DNA from: Zychaea mexicana
Taxonomy: Eukaryota > Mucoromycota > Mucoromycetes > Mucorales > Lichtheimiaceae
Direction of reading: 5' to 3'
NCBI RefSeq assembly: GCF_025766255.1
Contig: NW_026516726.1
Location: 1-64,000 of the forward strand
Length of the DNA stretch: 64,000 nt
Position 1 is the stretch's first letter. The number at the start of each line of letters is the position of its first letter. The translations under genes were made by a program, and so were the position numbers. This document shows, one piece after another, positions 49,998 to 62,589 of the stretch. Below the pieces are notes generated by a model. That model was not told the DNA's origin. It was given only the letters and a program-made list of their open reading frames with translations, and ran no database searches.

Positions 49998-50006
49998 CTA
50001 TTTTTT

Positions 50007-50114
50007 GGCTTTTGATACGGACACCCCCCTCTAATCCTTACGGACAACCCCTTCTATTTCCTCATCAGGTTACACACATCCTATAAATATATACTTGTGG
50101 GGGTGTCCGCAAGG
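50007..50114 (+). repeat. Left TIR of MULE A
   Basis: 108 bp, inverted match to 53810-53922. It carries three copies of a GGACA(A/C)CCC unit (near 50020, 50043 and, inverted, 50099-50108) that may be transposase binding sites (inference). Confidence 0.9.
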
Positions 50115-50340
50115 TTATGAATATACCTAAGTGGTGTGTTCTGTTATTTGCTATACCATATAAAGGGAGAGCCATAAATCAAAGTGATGTAAAATATAAT
50201 GTTCCTTTAAGGTATTATGTAAATCTTATCAACATCGCTGTTTAACACATGCCAGAATATATCAAATAACAATGAAATGTAGAGAGTGGTGTTCGAGAAG
50301 AGAGGGAATTAGAATTACTGTACAGGAAGTAGTAGAATGA

Positions 50341-53300
50341 TTAATCTAGTGTAAAGGGTCCAGCACGCACTGTCTTTTCGTCGTCACGCTTTTTTATCTG
50401 CAGATAACGCCACTTTGTTTTACGCAGGTTATCAATATTACCCATTGATCGGTATGCCTTTATACACATCGAGTTGATAATCGGCCAGTCCATCTTGATA
50501 ATGTGTCCTTTTGTATCGATGGTAGCCCAATGATTGTTATTCAGATGCTGCATAATGATGGGGAGAGGATTCTTGTTGTCGGACGATGGACCTTGCATTG
50601 GCAAAATTAGAGATGGCTCATAAGCGTATTCGTCAGAGTCTGGCTTTTTCTTATCATTGTCTGGATAAATTGCAAGAGGTCGTTGATAAGTGTCTGCAGC
50701 GATCTGTGCAAAGTCAGGCGCAAGGAACCAGTAATCCGATGGGCACGATTCTGGGGGTCGTGGTGCATCAAGTGCGTAAGATAGTGATGTTTCAATGCGC
50801 TGTAAATTTACACGCATAAATACATAGTGCTGCTGATATATATCCTTGTTTATCTTGAAGCACTCCAGCATTTGTAGCTTGACCAACATAAAAGCCTCTT
50901 GATTGCCGTGTACATGATGTGCGATTGTGCGGAAGCCACAGAAGCCATCAGACATAATGTCGACAGTTGTTTCAATGAACTTGCGAGGGATGTTTGGATG
51001 AACGAAGAACTTCAGCTTGGGTACAAAATCTTTTTTGGATCTACAATAGTTTATCAACTTAGTTTGGTTACAAAAAATCGTGATAGCTGCAAGTATTTGT
51101 TAGCTAGAATTCCATCAGAAGAGCACGTACCTTTTGTTCGTGCTTTCAAGGAAGTTCATCTCCGGATCCTTTCTTTTCCCTTGTTGAGGAAAAATGTAGA
51201 TGTTATCATCCTCAGTGTTGCTGCCTGCGGAGAGTTCCTCTGACTCGTTGGCATTTCTATTTTGAAAGCGTTGCTGGCTATCCTTTTCATCGAGTTCGAA
51301 CTTTGACGGTAATCGTGCATTTCTTGTGTTAGCAGGGCCTCCTTTCGTCTTCACATTGCTTGGTAATTCGATGTCGCTAATGTCGATACTCATTGTATAT
51401 TCGTCGATAGTCCCATCGATACTACTAAGTAAATCGGATTTTTGCTGATCCGACCGCATACTGTAGAGTACATCATGCAGCTTCTGTAGTACCATGTTCT
51501 GTTGCTCTAATACAATTGCTTCAGGAGTATACACCTTTTGGAAGCTATCTGTTTATAAATAACTCTCATATTAGGATATGAAGTATATTACAGGCGCATA
51601 GTATAATCACAGTATTACTATAGCAGAAAATTATACCTCTGTCATATTCCAAACGCCATCGATCAGGGATATCCGACAAGCTTATACTGAACCCTTTTCG
51701 TGCGATATTATGTTGACACGGCAGTCCATAGTTTAGCGTGGTACCACACCAGCACTCGCTTGAGTCAAGTTGATATTTATCGCAGTTATCCCAAGCTCGT
51801 TTGAGGTCCCTTCGGAGTCGGTTCAAAGCAAAAAACGAAATAGTGCCAAAGAGCTCTTGCATCGCAGCCGATTCATGCTTTCCATACAGTGGCATTTTAT
51901 GTCTTTCTTGCAAAAACTGAGTCTCTTCATCAGCCAACTAGTACAAAATTCTGATTAGCATATCTGTTAACACAATATATTTTCAATCCGAAAACAAAGG
52001 GTGTAGTACATACCGATTTACGCATGACACGATCAATTGCTTTGACCGTTTTAAACACGCTTCCGGTGGTTTGCATTGTATCTTTGATGCGCCAGTGTGT
52101 TCCTTCAACACGCGATGATGCCCTCATTCCCATGTTTAAAAGTCTTCCAGCATAACAAGCACCCCATTTCTCCTTATATTCAAGACAGCTATATAATATA
52201 TATAATATAATACAGCTGGTGAGCACAACTCGGCAAAAGCTCCAGTCAAAGATTGGATAAAGGTAGTTAACATACCCGTTGAGATAGTCCATCGTTTCTC
52301 TTTCTTTTTGCTAGCCAGCAAACTTATTGCAGACGTTGCATCATCTTCAGTATCTCTGTCGTTCTCGCTATTGCTGCTGTCGTCATGATGCTTCGCTTTG
52401 GACTTTGTTTTCTTGTGCTTTTTGTTGGATCGCTTATGGTTTTCGTTGGCATACGCAAGAGCACCTTTTTCGATCAGACACTAATAAGCGTCAATGGCAG
52501 CCTGGAAAGTCACTTCGTCTTTTTTACCAACATAAACCATTTGCTTAATGATAGCTTTGGCTTCGCCTATCTCTTCGCTGTTCGGTGGAAAGCAAGTACT
52601 GAAAATGCTACGTAAATGCTGCTCCATATGCCACCCGCAAAGTATATGCTCTGCATCTTTGAAATTTGACTCGATGGCGTTGATTAAAGCTCTTTCGTTG
52701 TCCGTAATGAAGATGCGTACGTTTCCTTCTGGCCATATGACTTGTCGCATAGTCCGAAGGAGCCAGGTGTACGACTCTTCTTTCTCGTTTACCAAGAAAG
52801 CAGAGGCAATAAGCACGTTCTTGAGCTTTGATGCACCGAGATGACTGACACCAACAACATTGACAAGAGGCATCTTGGTTCTGCTCGTTTTGTACGTCGC
52901 ATCGATAGCAATGATCTCGTTGAATCGTCGTGCTTTTGCTATACTCGTTTCATGGGTAAAAAAGAGGGCGCCGAGACTTTTACCTGTGCCGTCTAGCTTA
53001 TATCTAGTGATATAGTTGTTACCAATGAGGAACTCGAATATCCTACTGAAGCCGCCATGATTATCCTCACGGAATATTTGCGCACGAAAATTGTATAGGT
53101 CCCTCATGGTCATAATTGCGCCGTCTTTGTGGTTCTGGACTTCTCGATGTATCATGAGGGGCCTGACGGAATTATCTGTCAATGATAATATTTGCTGCTC
53201 GGCGTGGAGAGTTGACGTGCGTTGTTGGTGGTAATACTGAGGAGGCTTGTCGAGGGAGTGGTTGTGCTCATTGTCGTTGCTGACCTTCGTTACTTTCCAG

Positions 53301-53563
53301 TGCTTATCCTTCTCGGACCACCTTAGGTTCATGGTCCATTGGCAGCCGGTCGTCTTCGTCGCTGTTTGGCGTCCCCGCGTTTCTTCAGTTACTCCATGTG
53401 TATTGCGATAGCTTCCACCATGTACGCACTGGATCACGATTTTTACGTTCTTCTCACTTCGTTTAGTTGAAACCGCAAAGTTGTATTCTCTGGCTTGCTC
53501 GTTGATTGCTTTCACAATTTGCTTATTTGATCCGGTATAAGTAGTGTCAATCAATTGCTCCAT
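50341..53563 (-). pseudogene. MULE transposase with C-terminal OTU-like cysteine-peptidase domain (disrupted)
   Basis: Exons 53563-52276, 52188-52014, 51937-51637, 51548-51131 and 51040-50341. The N-terminus MEQLIDTTYTGS leads a FAR1-like zinc domain (CVHGGSYR, CQWTMNL, HNH). The MULE catalytic core has first Asp in IIAIDATYKTS, second Asp in FITDNERAL, and CGWHMEQHL, followed by SRVEGTHWRIKD. A SWIM finger follows (CWC, then LPCQH). Next is a basic linker LPSNVKTKGGP and a final domain with the OTU cysteine box SDGFCGFRTIAHH and a late NNNHWATI histidine. Lesions: TAG at 52481-52483 inside an otherwise continuing frame (likely from CAG), and exon 1 ends one base out of phase with exon 2, so a frameshift lies near 52290. 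A parallel, intact gene is in element B. Confidence 0.85.
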
Positions 53564-53809
53564 AGTGTTGGGATAGTAGGATGATAAACGTAGGTAGAAA
53601 GTTGAAGATATAACATCAAAGTATACTGTTTATTGAGGAGCATTTGTATACTTGTATAAACTACTGCACATAAACACATCCGTAGAGACACCCTAGAGAG
53701 TTTGAAAAGCATTAAGGAATGTTTTTCATGTACTTTTTATGGTTCCTTTTTGTTATATATCGAAAGATGTATAATAACAATAACAAGTGAACAAATCCAG
53801 TGAACACAT

Positions 53810-53922
53810 CCTTGCGGACACCCCCACAAGTATATATTTATAGGATGTGTGTAACCTGATGAGGATTAAAAATAGAAGGGGGTGTCCGTAAGGATCAGAG
53901 GGGGGTGTCCGTATCAAAAGCC
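53810..53922 (-). repeat. Right TIR of MULE A
   Basis: 113 bp, the reverse complement of the left TIR apart from two substitutions and an extra 5 bp near 53865-53870. Confidence 0.9.
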
Positions 53923-53931
53923 CTATTTTTT

Positions 53932-54232
53932 CTAGAATAACAGAGGCTTTGCTTGATGTGGCCTAAAAATATGGGCTATAGTCGCCCTCAAACGAACGTT
54001 GTGAATATAAGTTGAGCTTATATCCTTGTTGTCGCTATAGAACAAGATTGGCGTGGCGCTTTGTTGAGTAACAACCAAGAGTTCACCACTGGTGTCGCAC
54101 AAAGTTTTTTCTCCGTTTACATGCGCTTCATGCGTCTATTGTTTTGTTAGGGATCTCAAACATTATAGAGATCAAGTGGAAGTCGCAAAACCAGACCTGA
54201 GACATGCTTGTTTGTATGTTTAAGCTATTATT
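53932..54232. other. Gap between the two MULEs
   Basis: About 300 bp of ordinary sequence with no repeat or gene noticed; it shows the elements are adjacent, not nested. Confidence 0.6.
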
Positions 54233-54240
54233 TAAAAAAA

Positions 54241-54451
54241 CAGAGTTGCTCGAGCGACCAAATTTTTCCTTGCGTAGACCAAATTTTTACATATAGGAGT
54301 TTAAACATCCGTTACACATGTCTCCTCTACTATCTTCACTCCTTCGGGAGACCAAACTTCTCCCCACACCAATTTCAGATTTTCCTTACAATCTGTAATT
54401 CCTTGCGTAGACCAAAAAAAAGTGGAAGTGTAATTCTTTGTGTAGACCAAA
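54241..54451 (+). repeat. Left TIR of MULE B
   Basis: 211 bp starting CAGAGTTGCTCGAGCGACC. It contains three copies of a (C/T)TTGCGTAGACCAAA-type unit (near 54268, 54402 and, as TTTGTGTAGACCAAA, 54437), plus GAGACCAAAC near 54348. These are candidate transposase binding sites. Confidence 0.95.
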
Positions 54452-54805
54452 AAAAACAAAAAACAAATAAACTCTAAATAGTGATAGCAAACACTCCATT
54501 GCGACTTGTCAGCTGCAAACACAAACACTCGAGAAGTTATTTGAAACATTGCTGCGCCAGCTACTTCTTTACAAGAGCTGTCCGAAATTATACTGTAACA
54601 CCATTGTCAAGATTGCTCAGCTTTTTTTACCTTCTCCGATACATACTACTATTTGCTGCGGTATCTACTTATCATGCTGTTTGTCGCTGCTGAGCGTTCA
54701 GTACAGTAACCCACTATGCCGCAGCAATTTGGCTATGCAACGTGCTTTGTCATCTCTTGTATGAGATGCGTATTGACTCGTATATGGTATTGAGTGAAAA
54801 AAAAG

Positions 54806-54813
54806 TATAAATA
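54806..54813 (+). promoter_or_regulatory. TATA box of transposase B
   Basis: TATAAATA lies 105 bp before the ATG at 54918, inside the element and outside the TIR, so the element carries its own promoter. Confidence 0.55.
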
Positions 54814-54917
54814 TCAGGACCAATTGCTAGATTGATCGATAGTAATCAATTCTATTTTCAATCCCTATTTTTACTTGCACCTATTAAAAACTTGCATAGT
54901 CCCATCTACCGATTACC

Positions 54918-57900
54918 ATGAGTCACCTTATTGGAAGAACCTACGACACCGCAGATGATATGGTGAAAGACATTCAAGCCTACGCCAAAGAAGAAGGGTT
55001 CACCATCGTCAAGAAAACCAATGAACAAGGCAGCGCACTGACCTTCAAGTGTAAGAAGCATGGCAAATACCAGGATCGTGTCACCGCTAAAGGAATGTCC
55101 CGCCAAAGACAAGGCAAAAGTCAAAAAACTGGCTGTCTATGGGAGATCTACGGCTCATACGCTCAAGTCAAGAAAGGCGAACCCAAAGCATGGCAAATCA
55201 GAAGATTCAATTGGCATTATGGAAGAGAGTATAAGTCTAACTCGGATGAAGTATTTGCTCTTGACGACGCTATTGAGCATAACCACCCGGTAGAGAAGAG
55301 CAACGGCGAAGCTCCTGGCTACGTACCTTACCAACGTCGAGAGTTTTATCAAGATGACGAAGTGCTTGAAACCCTGGCCAGCACAGAAGCGGCGTCTCTC
55401 CGACCAGCTAGCATAGCAGAACTCGTTCGGGCAAGACATAACGGTATCCTTATTACTCCTAAGGACGTTTCCAACTTCCGGCAAAGATACTGTAATGTCT
55501 CGGCTATTGACAGCAAGTTTTCACCGCTTGTTGACTATTTACAAGGTCACGGTTACGTCTCACATTATGAGATCAATTCCAACAAAGTCCTCAAGGCTCT
55601 TTTTGTGGTTCATCCCAACAACATAACTATGGCACGAAGGTAAAGGAACTAGAAAACTCTTTGAGCATTACAACTTTCGAACCGAAAACGGTTTACAAAT
55701 TCTAATGGCGATCAATTAAAGGTTCCCTCATGTAATCCAAATCGATTCTACCTACAAAACGAATATCCACAACATGCCACTTGTGAACATAGTGGGCGTA
55801 GGCAACCTTGGAACCAACAGCCTTCGTACGTTCATTATCGCGTCTGCCATTATCTCCAACGAGAACGAGGATATGTACACCTGGGTCGCCAAGAAAATGC
55901 ATGACATCGTGTGGCCTGCATCGAGCTCCAGAGCTCCAGCATTGTTTATAACTGACGGCGACAATGCATTGAGAAACGCTCTGTCTGAAATCTTCCCGCA
56001 AGTTACGTCAATTCTTTGTGCATGGCACGTTGAAAAAAATTTCATGAAGCGTTGCAAGAAGAAGTTCCCTCCTGCGTTACGTGGCCGAAAATCCGAAGAA
56101 CAAAAATTCAATAAAGCCGTTGTAACCTTGTTATACGCTCGAACCGATAAGGATTTTGAAGCAGGAGTGACCGATTACCAGGAGTTGGCAAAGTTGTCAA
56201 CAATCGAGGATGAACTTATCGAATATCTCAATGAGTAAGTTCAATATCTTTTATGTAAATGAGCTATGTTTAGTTAAAGATGCAAACGAATACTAATAAC
56301 AAACATCAAAATCGGGATAAAAACTAGAATGCTCGAGAGCAAAGAAGACTGGGCAGGTCCTTGGTGTGAAGCAAAAAAGCATTTCGGCTGCAGGTCTACA
56401 CAGAGAGTCGAAAGCGCTCATTATATGCTAAAACGGCATTTGGACAAGCCAAAGTCGTTAAGACTCTTGTTTAAGAGTATCCATGAGTGGTGTATTCAAT
56501 CAGTAAGACATATTTCTGTTAATTAATCGAAAGTATATAGTACATCAGTTTGATACTAATTTAATCTTATTTATTCATATAGCAAAAGAGTCGAGACATT
56601 TACCTGTCAAACGAAACGCAAAGTGTACCTGTAGTAGTGTTACAACAAGACGATGCATACTATTTCCAGAATGTTATTAGGAAGATCTCGCACTTTGCGT
56701 TACTTTTACTTCGTAACGAACGTGCTTCACGAGGAGAACAGCGCGACAACTGCCCATGCATACCATTGAGAAACTACAGCCTTCCTTGTCGTCACACGCT
56801 CCCGCAAGATCCTATCCCACTGGAATCAATTGATTCGTTCTGGCATCTGAAAGACAATGGAGGTGAGCACTAATAAGCATATATTACTCATACTATGTAC
56901 AGGTTTCATTATGAAATTTATACTCATGGATACTGGTTTTTATAGAAACTGATGTAACAGTTCTTGCTCAAAGCACAAATGAACGCTCGAAACAAGTTTT
57001 ATTTGCAGCACACCATCAAATGCTGGCAATGCAAAATGACCCGCAAAAATTATCCAAATTCTTGGATAATATTGAAGGTGCAATCCAAGCAGCCATTGAT
57101 GACATTGCTGATATAAATTATGTGGTGCTGCCAAAGAAAGTGAAGACCAAAGGACGAGCAACAGAACGACGAAAAAGGACACGAAGATCGCGCCTCCAGA
57201 TCATAAACTTGGTTGCAGACAAGGACAAGAGTGGAATCCCATCAAATGATTCATCCGACGAAAGTGGTGATACGCAAAGTAAAAGGTACTATTCATACAT
57301 ACCATCAGATTGTCAAATTTTGGGATCACAAATGTACTAAGCGACGAGTATGTAATGTAGAGTGAGAACCGATCCTAACGATGATGTCCCATCTCTCATC
57401 ATTCCAAAAAGGCGTCAACAATTGGAAAATTCTGCTACACAGAGTCAGCAACAAAGAGAAAGTCGACAAGGTAATACTGTGATATATATATTATGAAAGA
57501 TAATTTTTCTGTCTTACTTATGATACGCATGAAATGCAATTATTCTTTTATCTTATACAGCTGCCGAAAAAGACAAACCGTACAGTTTGCACTTGAGGCG
57601 AAATCAGAATAACTCGTGCTTCATTGACGCTCCAATGGAGATGCTGTGGCATTCTGCTTTCCCCTTCATCGATATGCGCAACCAGCTCCTACCTACTAAT
57701 TTTAACCCGGTCGATAATGCGCTGCACTATACATACATGCATCATTCCGAGAACACCGAAAAAGGGCGTGATTATGCGAGCATGTGGATCCGGGATTTCG
57801 CTTGGAGTGACATAGTATACATGGACAAGGGCTGGCACTCTGCAATTGAATTCCTTTTGCAGTTCATTTTGGAAAGAGCTTCGACGTTTATACAAGACCA

Positions 57901-59393
57901 GTTCTTCATCAAATGCCTACGAGTCATTTATTGTGAAGAGCACGGTGTATTTTATCCTGCCGATTCACACTACCTCAGGCCGGCAGTTTACATTGAGGAC
58001 TTGGTCTCAAGCGCAGAAGACCCTGTCGAGTTTGGCAAGCTACTCTACAACATTCACATCGAGGACGAAAGGCTCGCTCTACAAGGCTGTCCCGAACCAG
58101 GCTGTAGTTGCTCTGCAATGGAATATAATGTGCCAACAGAATTTCCGACATTCCTTATCTTTGCAGACGACGAAAGAGAACGACATGGTCGGCCTACTAT
58201 GTTTCCCTACCGGCTTATGCTCACAGACGACGAAGGTGGAATATCGGAAGAATATGTATTGCATGCAAGGATTTATTCAACGTCATCAGGAGGAGCACAT
58301 TTCTATACCGTGGCTATAATCGAACACCGAAACAAACGATTCCTCGCACGCATGGACAACTTGGCCGGCAATCAAGTGCAGATAATTGCATCCGATCCTG
58401 ATTCTATTGAAAGCATATTAACAGAAAACAGAAAGCATACGATATCGATACTGTACAAGAAAGCCGACCAGCTAAAAGCACCGACGCCTTCATACACGCT
58501 TGATGAAGAGCATCATATGCAGGAGGTATTCGACCAAGTGGAACCAGGCAAGTATATAAGCTTTTTGCTGTTATAAGCTCAACGACGTGTAGCTGATTTT
58601 TCTAATGGTTTTTAGTGATCGCCTGCTGGAGGTGCTCAACTCCTTTGCCTACACCATTACAAGCATCCTTGTCGCCCAATTATTTCAGCGTCTTTCCGCA
58701 TTCGAAAGTAAAGAAACCTCATCGACAGAATGATGTTGCTTGGTGTAGACCGCATCTCGACATTATGGTCTACGAGCCAATGCGCCTAGCGAACAAATTC
58801 CCTTTGGTCGAATTCGAGGCCTTGCCGGAACGGATCGCAAAATGGATAGACGAGCTCAAGGATTTGATAATGGATAAGCCGTTTCAAAGCTATTTCAAGA
58901 AGAAGATCATAGAATACTACAAAAATGCACCGAGCATCAGAGCTGCGAAAAATCCAATGTTAAAGATGAGCATTTTCAAAGACCATATGGTAAGTTTTGC
59001 AAAATTGAAATGTATACATAGTAGAACCTATGATATAATAACAATTATCTTTATATTTTATAGCCTGGATACTATGGGTTTAAAGGCAAAAAAATAATCG
59101 CAAAAACACTCCAAGACATGCTGGTACACGAGATCGATGCTGCGAATGAGCACATCAAACCGATGGATACCCCGGAATATATAGCCTCTGTTCTTGTTCC
59201 AGAGGTCGGTATGCGCCTTATTAGGGAAGATCTTGAGACGGCCGGTGAGACAGAAGAAGATTGTGATTGCACGATTAGGCTAGCAGAAGAATACAGTCCC
59301 CTCAGCAACATGGCGCTTTTCCGCATGGAGCGTAGCGTCGACTACGGCTGTTTCAAATATCCAGATGACGATGACTCAGACAGTGAAGATTAG
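54918..59393 (+). CDS. MULE transposase with C-terminal ubiquitin-specific-protease-like domain
   Basis: Nine exons (54918-55639, 55722-56234, 56328-56502, 56583-56862, 56946-57285, 57361-57470, 57561-58547, 58616-58989, 59064-59393) form one open frame of 1,276 aa. Domains: FAR1-like zinc region (about 5-115; CKKHGKY, GCLWEI, EHNHP); MULE core with D249 (IDSTYKT), D319 (FITDGDNAL) and CAWHVEKN, then RVESAHYMLKRHL; SWIM finger C527-P-C529 with C539-R-H541; basic linker LPKKVKTKGR. A long C-terminal part then has a USP-type cysteine box RNQNNSCFIDAPMEMLW (C733), Cys-rich knuckles (CPEPGCSC) and the His box SSGGAHFYTV (H960) followed by ARMDNL (D979). A helical tail with an acidic end finishes the protein. 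Intron 7 is GC-AG (AG|GCAAGT). The transposase moves the element; the role of the peptidase-like part is unknown. Confidence 0.88.
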
Positions 59394-59622
59394 GGCGACC
59401 AAGAGCATCATATACTCTGATGAATAAATAGCAGAACCATACATTATCTTCTCCAACATATTTCTATACACTTTCACTTTTTTTCTCTTTCTCTATATTC
59501 TTCTGTTAAAAAAAGAAAAAGAACAATGTTCAATAAAAGAAAATGTCAAACCTGCGTGGTAAATGGCTACCACTGGATATTATATCTCACTTACTGAACG
59601 TCACTACAAGGCAACATGATTA

Positions 59623-59833
59623 TTTGGTCTACACAAAGAATTACACTTCCACTTTTTTTTGGTCTACGCAAGGAATTACAGATTGTAAGGAAAATCTGAA
59701 ATTGGTGTGGGGAGAAGTTTGGTCTCCCGAAGGAGTGAAGATAGTAGAGGAGACATGTGTAACGGATGTTTAAACTCCTATATGTAAAAATTTGGTCTAC
59801 GCAAGGAAAAATTTGGTCGCTCGAGCAACTCTG
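59623..59833 (-). repeat. Right TIR of MULE B
   Basis: 211 bp. Its reverse complement matches the left TIR base for base as far as could be checked by eye. Confidence 0.95.
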
Positions 59834-59841
59834 TAAAAAAA

Positions 59842-60916: not shown

Positions 60917-62589
60917 ATGGACGCTGAAGAACCCGTAGTATTCGAGTCCGGCCATACCGCCTGGATCATGACTGCCATGGCCCTGGTTTGGCTTATGATA
61001 CCAGGCCTTGGTTATTTCTACTCTGGTCTTGCTTCCCACAAGAACGCCTTATCGCTCATCATGTATGTCTTGGTATGCATGATGGTAGCCTCTATACAGG
61101 TATGAGAGATGTATATAAACAGCAGGCTTGGTACATCATTGCTCGCTGCTGTGGCTATTGTTATTGTTGAAGAAAATATATTTAGCAATTACTGATAATA
61201 GCAATGTTGATGGTGATCTATCATATGTAGTGGTTTGTATGGGGCTACAGCTTGACATTTTCTCTCGGCGGTAATGCACTTCTCGGTAACCTCGACAACG
61301 CCTTCCTCCGTGGCCTCCTTGGCTATCCTTCCGTCGGCATGGACGCCATCCCAGACTTGGTTTTCTGCATCTACCAATGTATGTTCCAATGTGTCACCGC
61401 AGCCCTTGTTGTCGGTGCTGTTGCTGAACGTGCCCGTATCTTGCCCTTGATGCTTTTCGTCTTTATCTGGTCAACCCTCGTCTACAACTTCCTTGCCTAC
61501 TGGACCTGGAACCCCAATGGCTGGTGTTTCCAACTCGGTGGTCTCGATTTTGCCGGTGGCACGCCCGTCCACATTGGCTCCGGTTGCTCTGCACTTGCTT
61601 ATGCTCTTGTTTTGGGCAAACGTATTGGCTATGGTAAAGACGCTGACCCTGAACGTTTCAAGGCCCACAACATGTCTAATGTGGCTCTCGGCACTGCATT
61701 GCTCTGGTTCGGTTGGGTAAATATTTATTAAGCACGCTCTTCTCGGTTAAATCGACAATGAAGAATGATGGTTTCAACTGTTGAACAATGTGTTTCAATG
61801 ACTTCTGATAAAGTATCCCTATTTGCTCACCATCCAAACATTCTCTATCAGTTCGGCTTCAATGGAGGTTCGGTTTTGAGCAGTAATGCACGTGTCGGTA
61901 TGGTCTGCATTGTCACCAACTTGGCTGCTGCTGTCGGTGCCTTAACCTGGATGATCATGGACTACCGTGTCGAGCGCAAATTCTCTGCCCTTGGCTTCTG
62001 CTCTGGCGCTATTGCCGGTTTGGTGGCTATCACTCCCGCTGCCGGTTTCGTGGGCCCAGGACCTGCTGTCGCTATTGGTTTCTTTGGTGGTTTCTTCTGT
62101 AACTTGTCCATGTACACTAAGCGTTGGCTCGGATTTGATGACGCTTTGGATGTGTTTTCCTTGCACGGTGTTGGTGGTTATGTTGGCTGTATCTTCACTG
62201 GTGTTTTCGCAGAAAGCTATGTCGCTGCTATTGATGGTACCGAGATTGACGGTGGTTGGTTAAACCAGAACTGGGTTCAGGTCGGCTATCAATTTGCTGA
62301 TGCCACAGCCGGTGCTGCCTGGGCGTTCTGTATGACCTATATAATTTTGTTTGTCATGAACAAGATCCCCGGTCTCGCTTTGCGTGTCTCAGAAGAGGAA
62401 GAAATCCAAGGTCTCGATGTCACCGAAATCGGTGAGAGCGCCTACGTCTATGTCAACAAGTTGATCTCTGTCGACTCCAAGACTGGTGTCCAAACCACTG
62501 TCCGTGAAGAAATCAAGCAGGTCAACGTTGGAGAGCACGGTTCCGTGCATACCACCGATAAGGTTGAAGTTACTCTCAACGGCGCGTAA
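60917..62589 (+). CDS. Ammonium transporter, MEP/AMT family
   Basis: Three exons (60917-61099, 61231-61716, 61852-62589) give 468 aa with eleven hydrophobic segments. Family landmarks include WLMIPGLGYFYSGL, the first pore His in LDFAGGTPVHIGSG (D167, H175) and the second in DVFSLHGVGGYVGCIFTG (H328). So the twin-His pore is complete. Yeast Mep1 and Mep3 have Glu at the first position, while Mep2 keeps His, so this is of the Mep2/Amt-like pore type. The C-terminal cytosolic tail starts at LRVSEEEEIQGLD..EIGE, the conserved regulatory segment, and extends about 55 residues. It imports ammonium at the plasma membrane and could also act as a nitrogen sensor, as Mep2 does (inference). Confidence 0.96.

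Follow-up and report, generated by a model that had tools for sequence, protein, structure and literature searches.

Neighbouring Mutator-like transposons of Zychaea mexicana appear to hold either an OTU-like or a C19-like module at the same place in the transposase

The window analysed here, the first 64,000 nucleotides of contig NW_026516726.1 from Zychaea mexicana (assembly GCF_025766255.1), contains two neighbouring Mutator-like elements (MULEs), DNA transposons of this Mucorales fungus, which we term element A and element B. Element A (50007-53922, minus strand) has an OTU-like C-terminus and is bounded by terminal inverted repeats (TIRs) at 50007-50119 and 53805-53922 that are 96-97% identical, with a 9 bp target duplication (CTATTTTTT) at 49998-50006 and 53923-53931. 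Element B (54241-59833, plus strand) carries a C19-like module followed by an RTC4 domain; its 215-bp TIRs are reported at 54240-54454 and 59620-59834, and its 8 bp target duplication (TAAAAAAA), which is of low complexity, lies at 54233-54240 and 59834-59841. Positions 50007 and 59833 are the outer TIR ends of the two elements to within one base, and both duplications lie inside the 8-11 bp range of MULEs. The elements, the positions of their modules, the mutual exclusion of the two module types in the scored loci of the genome and the conservation of residues of catalytic type are all computed directly from the DNA. As an overall explanation, to which we give a probability of about 0.6, we propose that MULEs of this genome have an exchangeable module slot that may be filled by an OTU-like or a C19-like domain.

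Both transposases match the Pfam MULE family (E=1.9e-21 in A and, after splicing, 3.7e-24 in B), as expected from a preliminary description of this DNA made from the sequence alone. The N-terminal part of the A transposase (52481-53563, minus strand) comprises a FAR1-like domain and the MULE DDE core (Pfam match at 52622-52915), and runs into an in-frame TAG at 52481-52483, because of which this copy is probably broken; the frame has 382 codons from stop to stop, and in sister elements some frames have 462-496 codons and others are shorter. Further along the minus strand lie an open reading frame (ORF) region with the SWIM-like motif CWCGTTLNYGLPCQH (51566-51937, without a Pfam match), a linker region containing SNVKTKGGP (51131-51552), and the OTU-like module, which extends through the stop codon (50341-51040) and is assigned by its profile match to OTUD5 and by alignment, with D51, C54 and H190 in the numbering of the ORF at 50344-51099. 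A candidate GT-AG intron found by eye (51041-51130) would connect the linker in frame with the OTU exon. The module of A (window positions 50344-51042) is identical over all 233 compared codons to a copy designated C302a (C302:87046-87756; contigs of the assembly are given C numbers), which is a sign of recent movement.

The gene of element B is represented by a splice model made by hand, with nine exons on the plus strand (54918-59393), zero in-frame stops and a product of 1276 amino acids plus stop. The first exon (54918-55639) is followed by that of the DDE core (55722-56234, Pfam MULE E=1.8e-25), a third exon (56328-56502), one with the SWIM-like motif CPCIPLRNYSLPCRH (56583-56862), the linker exon containing LPKKVKTKGRA (56946-57285), which is recognised also from sister linkers, and a sixth exon (57361-57470). 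The C19/USP-like module occupies the seventh exon (57561-58547, with a GC donor), where the putative Cys lies in NNSCFIDA, the His in GAHFYT and the Asp in MDNL. The last two exons (58616-58989 and 59064-59393) encode a zinc-ribbon-like CxxC...CxxH, seen by eye, and the RTC4 domain (58616-59393 together; PF14474, E=8.5e-17; 61.9 bits, cut-off 23.7). All motifs quoted in the preliminary description are present, namely VKTKG in both proteins, DGFCGFR and NHW in A, and NNSCFIDAPMEMLW, GAHFYTV and MDNL in B. The common domain order that it proposed stands for the MULE core and the linker but less securely elsewhere: the FAR1-like domain falls below the Pfam cut-off in A (E=1.7e-5, 25.9 bits against 28.1) and in the whole B protein (E=0.067), and the SWIM finger is in both a CxC...CxH motif seen by eye, for which the Pfam scan gave no SWIM. 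Neither the RTC4 domain of B nor the RTC4 at the end of some OTU elements featured in that description.

The catalytic pattern of OTU enzymes consists of D-G-x-C and a late His. Among unique rows covering each site, near-copies included, the corresponding columns of the OTU-like modules retain Cys in 40/40, His in 41/42 and Asp in 39/40. A profile built from 14 modules (A and 13 others, 21-97% identical to A) matched two OTUD5 sequences (E=7.3e-8 and 2e-7), together with two chains labelled RNA-dependent RNA polymerase (E=3e-4 and 5e-4) that we take to be nairovirus OTU domains. Module A by itself gave a weak OTUD5 match in a single-sequence search (E=0.22) and matched zero families in Pfam. 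Three results from Pfam count against an OTU assignment: none of the 14 rows of the module alignment, A included, reached Pfam OTU at E<=1; a single row matched Otubain C65, at E=0.12; and a genome search with PF02338 returned two matches, neither of them at the OTU-like modules. On the profile matches and conserved columns, module A is almost certainly an OTU-family domain, as had been proposed.

No common domain emerges when the modules of A and B are aligned (hhalign probability 0.1%), in keeping with the original suggestion that they differ. The C19 nature of module B was harder to establish, and the evidence covers the Cys-box half only; the C-terminal half, single sequences and structure prediction gave nothing. 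A first B-type alignment of 11 rows yielded a consensus that matched Pfam UCH at E=0.015, and a second consensus of this family had no match to UCH. An enlarged profile of 40 matching stretches, near-copies included, gave a consensus with UCH as top match (E=2.3e-5; 24.6 bits, where the cut-off is 23.9) in an alignment starting at the Cys box; reversed and six block-shuffled versions of this consensus (0/7) did not match UCH. The N-terminal half alone matched UCH at E=1.9e-5, and changing its Cys to Ser lowered the score from 24.8 to 20.5 bits (-4.3). In rows covering each site, again with near-copies, the putative catalytic columns hold Cys in 17/18, His in 16/17 and Asp in 16/16, and the pattern YxLxAxI...GxHFxT...DN looks by eye like a USP His box.

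A C19 assignment has to be set against several negative results. Single B-type proteins scanned with Pfam, among them the annotated protein P0001, gave zero UCH matches; B is not listed by a genome search with PF00443; the C-terminal half of the consensus had zero Pfam matches; and a His-box profile of four sequences (two USPs of the Zychaea mexicana genome and two USP30 chains) failed to detect B. Two AlphaFold models were poor, with mean predicted local distance difference test (pLDDT) scores of 45.5 and, for P0001 alone, 35.9, and Foldseek returned zero matches at E<=0.001 for the former; the B-type profile likewise had zero relevant PDB matches. The consensus also matched PFam54_60 in second place (E=1.1e-4, below the family cut-off), which indicates that a helical consensus may reach such a score by chance. 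Module B could instead belong to a different family of papain-like cysteine proteases, USPL1/C98-like or new for example, with a UCH match arising by chance or from distant resemblance of fold. The absence of UCH from individual proteins, the negative His-box half and the narrow margin by which the consensus alone passes the cut-off speak for this alternative, but UCH is the top match and lines up at the Cys box, against 0/7 in the controls, and the order of Cys, His and Asp and the YxLxAxI...GxHF pattern resemble a USP His box by eye; we consider another family rather unlikely. A very diverged C19/USP domain is quite probable and is the most likely reading of module B, short of proof. The preliminary C19 assignment is thus supported with less certainty than that of OTU, through its Cys-box half; the His-box test and structure prediction did not bear it out.

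A protein-database search with the C-terminus of B found zero relatives, and a search with the 11-row module alignment found one protein, P0001; residues 140-680 of B gave zero matches at E<=1e-10 among 7987 scored candidates. P0001 is the product of an annotated standalone gene (C258:196300-197700) with a B-type module and without a MULE match within 3 kb upstream, and it is possible that this gene is a source or a domesticated copy of the module. A further group of B-type modules with the motif CYIDAFVEM (four loci, on C184, C192 and C289) is also without a MULE match upstream. In one B-type relative (C137:797-1036) a Tyr occupies the Cys position; this module sits downstream of a stretch that resembles another MULE type by eye, although the piece scanned had no Pfam match.

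We surveyed the whole genome (50.3 Mb, 305 contigs) for DDE cores, for OTU-like modules with three queries, for B-type modules with two, and for RTC4. Scoring 150 of 222 candidate DDE matches gave, after merging, 149 DDE loci, beside 103 OTU-like, 24 B-type and 39 RTC4 loci; nearly all places in the three OTU-like tables went into the merge, each place once. These tables are lower bounds, some DDE cores lie near contig ends, and modules were counted within 3 kb. OTU-like modules follow 63/149 scored DDE loci (60 alone, 3 with RTC4) and B-type modules follow eight (6 with RTC4, 2 alone), so that OTU-like modules make up 63/71 of the relatives with a detected module. Both types were found together at 0/149 loci. 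On the same strand, OTU-like modules start 1272-1672 nt past the DDE match in 62/63 cases and 852 nt past it in one, and B-type modules start at 1510-1605 nt in 8/8. Control searches of the 149 loci on the flipped strand gave no OTU-like and one B-type module, and on the upstream side three OTU-like and no B-type, which makes the arrangement more than a chance effect. Viewed from the modules, a DDE match lies upstream of 63/103 OTU-like and 8/24 B-type loci. An earlier count, in which each module had a single query, agreed with this one; a C299 locus with OTU and RTC4 from that count, where the module is 4.3 kb away, is excluded by the 3-kb limit. The linker LP(S/K)NVK(T/A)(K/R)GRP was seen in 5/13 loci scanned, as LPSNVKTKGRP ahead of OTU-like modules (2) and LPKNVKARGRP ahead of B-type modules (3). 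The near-equal distance from the DDE core, the similar linker and the absence of scored loci with both modules support the proposal that the two occupy one fixed position. A common slot is less easily reconciled with the 77/149 scored DDE loci that have no detected module. Peptidase_C48/Ulp1 had four matches in the genome, none at A, B or near a scored MULE core, and was absent when the modules were scanned with Pfam.

RTC4 (restriction of telomere capping 4) is a fungal domain, which the 40 matches in this genome place at the 39 merged loci. Within 2 kb upstream of these there is an OTU-like module in 12 cases, a B-type module in 9, both in 0, and neither in the 18 solitary cases; RTC4 thus also terminates some OTU-bearing MULEs, and at three of these loci (C268, C282 and C191) a DDE match is present too. 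Five of the 18 solitary loci were looked into. Those on C212, C42 and C242 are apparently internally deleted B elements that retain inverted-repeat sequence of B type together with the final exon, that of RTC4, and RTC4 on C290 has a B-type repeat on either side, with about 1.6 kb between the two; C290 and C270 were grouped with short, internally deleted B derivatives. Since such derivatives keep the RTC4 exon, a solitary RTC4 gene annotated in a fungus may in some cases be what is left of a transposon. The single scored DDE locus with RTC4 alone (1/149, on C212) was rejected as spurious, its RTC4 apparently belonging to a deleted B copy inserted there. An RTC4 gene with CPFC...FCRLH (C201:427300-428500), 36-37% identical to OTU-linked and 30-32% to B-type RTC4 regions, is perhaps a separate host gene. 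Outside the elements, ORFs at 61231-62589, downstream of B, resemble an ammonium transporter by eye.

The history of the slot was examined in a DDE tree of 46 rows, drawn from A, B and 46 further loci, one of them a duplicate (47/149 scored loci), after omission of a 63-residue fragment (C191) and the duplicate (C47). The seven B-type rows form one group (87/88, not starred), which stands by itself on one side of a branch in 85% of 200 bootstrap trees; a single change of state is enough to account for OTU and C19 on this tree. Repeated swapping of modules, as the preliminary description envisaged, is not called for. Both of the other main clades contain OTU-bearing rows, with A in a clade that groups with OTU-RTC4 rows (80/86), and nine rows, one of them the C212 row, are without a detected module. 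This distribution and the sufficiency of one change favour a single replacement of OTU by C19 in the B lineage over two captures, unconnected with each other, at a preferred exon boundary, by which each MULE lineage would have gained its own module with no replacement. The tree does not settle how the C19 clade and the two clades with OTU are ordered, and the RTC4 tree does not distinguish one capture by MULEs from two; both circumstances leave independent capture a real, though lesser, possibility, and replacement likely.

Ratios of non-synonymous to synonymous substitution rates (dN/dS) in the modules lend mild support to a maintained function. Of 32 pairs computed, which share ancestry and were chosen from the sequences in hand, five were given a Fisher test: dN/dS was 0.41 for the OTU pair C10/C237 (p=0.005), 0.35 for A/C106 (p=0.04) and 0.43 for B/C110 (p=0.05). 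Less favourable to constraint are B/C68, where a value of 0.73 is not different from 1 (p=0.30), and A/C302b, which is not different from 1 either (p=0.24); A/C82 and C82/C52 gave 0.75 and 0.95. The values near 1 in some pairs, the stops inside some copies and the capture of gene pieces by plant Mutator-like elements, as described in passages of PMC6431247, would fit modules that are captured passengers of no use to the transposon, resembling Pack-MULE debris. A module of either type nevertheless follows 71/149 scored DDE loci at near-constant spacing, and the catalytic residues are almost invariant among modules down to 21% identity with A, so that we think passengers improbable. It is equally improbable that the modules are inactive binding domains, ubiquitin readers that direct the transposase to ubiquitinated chromatin: the Tyr of C137 at the Cys position would suit such a role, but Cys is present in 40/40 covering OTU rows and 17/18 covering B-type rows.

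Our preferred explanation is that the transposase has a slot for a module, extending from the conserved basic linker to the protein end or, in B and some OTU relatives, to a terminal RTC4 domain. The slot would hold an OTU-like cysteine protease in A and most relatives, and a very diverged C19/USP-like protease, probably exchanged once, in the B lineage. Both modules would be active deubiquitinases or would cleave a ubiquitin-like tag; activity is more probable than inactivity. From what is established about OTU and C19 enzymes, a papain-like protease acting in cis could free the transposase of ubiquitin, or do so for proteins of repair and chromatin where strand transfer takes place. In the MULEs, a module in cis would remove ubiquitin from the transposase or from its strand-transfer partners, giving the transposase a longer life or allowing repair. 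Protection of the transposase in cis is favoured and a role in repair comes second, yet protection itself is somewhat doubtful. The existence of sister elements with one or the other module suggests that such an activity helps these transposons. Taken as one joint reading, a deubiquitinase slot in which OTU was replaced by a C19-derived enzyme while RTC4 was kept, with P0001 as source or domesticated copy and transposition needing removal of ubiquitin in cis, is tentative and on the unlikely side.

Interchangeable ubiquitin-protease-like domains are already known from other transposons, as is Ulp1 in MULEs. According to passages of PMC2836005, Ginger1 transposases carry OTU or Ulp1, never both, and a ubiquitin or SUMO role in transposition has been suggested, with a link to DNA repair proposed by the Ginger authors. 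Ginger1 resembles A and B in having one or the other protease domain at the transposase C-terminus, but it has a DDE domain of the Gypsy-integrase type and is tabulated there from animals, and those passages contain no USP-like module or RTC4. Passages of PMC9741609 describe Helitrons and Helentrons in which OTU occurs beside or in place of VTD deubiquitinase domains, suggest that different classes can supply a useful activity, and propose that VTD shields transposition proteins from the proteasome. These elements also have one deubiquitinase class or the other; in contrast to A and B, Helitrons at times have both, their RepHel proteins are of rolling-circle and not MULE type, and VTD is not C19. 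MULEs with Ulp1, including Kaonashi/KIU, are described for plants, hydra and lancelet in parts of PMC13317346 and PMC2836005; like A and B they join a MULE to a protease for ubiquitin-like proteins, but of the Ulp1/C48 class. The Trichomonas protein XP_001314237.1, with transposase_11 and peptidase C19 (PMC2836005, in part), resembles B by its description in combining C19 with a DNA transposase, but has another transposase domain and belongs to a protist.

Our search of the open literature found no paper on OTU or USP/C19-like domains in fungal MULEs and none on RTC4 in a transposon; it also found no Phantom-type MULE with OTU, which would be a possible precedent. The terms OTU, protease, peptidase and ULP are absent from PMC6446971, on MULE evolution, and OTU and RTC4 are absent from PMC10799480, PMC12730594 and PMC12062965; in PMC6875170, OTU stands for operational taxonomic unit. 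The preliminary remark that no described pair of this kind was known to its author holds for fungal MULEs in the literature searched, but Ginger1 and Helitrons already show the interchange itself. What appears to be new, as far as this search goes, is OTU as a common MULE ending in one fungus, a B-type module occupying that slot as well, RTC4 following modules of either type and a standalone B-type gene.

These observations give RTC4 a new context, since the domain also rides on transposases. Passages of PMC9370660 report 45 proteins with RTC4 (PF14474) in Puccinia novopanici and 15 in P. sorghi and treat them as host genes without a transposon link, whereas the C-terminus of B is a member of the same Pfam family. 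Multi-copy families with either kind of module coexist in this single genome, here next to each other, so the question of their function can be tested by swapping or inactivating modules. Should the modules prove active, fungal MULEs would take a place beside Ginger1 and Helitrons, as further transposons with interchangeable ubiquitin-protease domains at the end of their proteins; this would argue for a ubiquitin-based limit on transposition.

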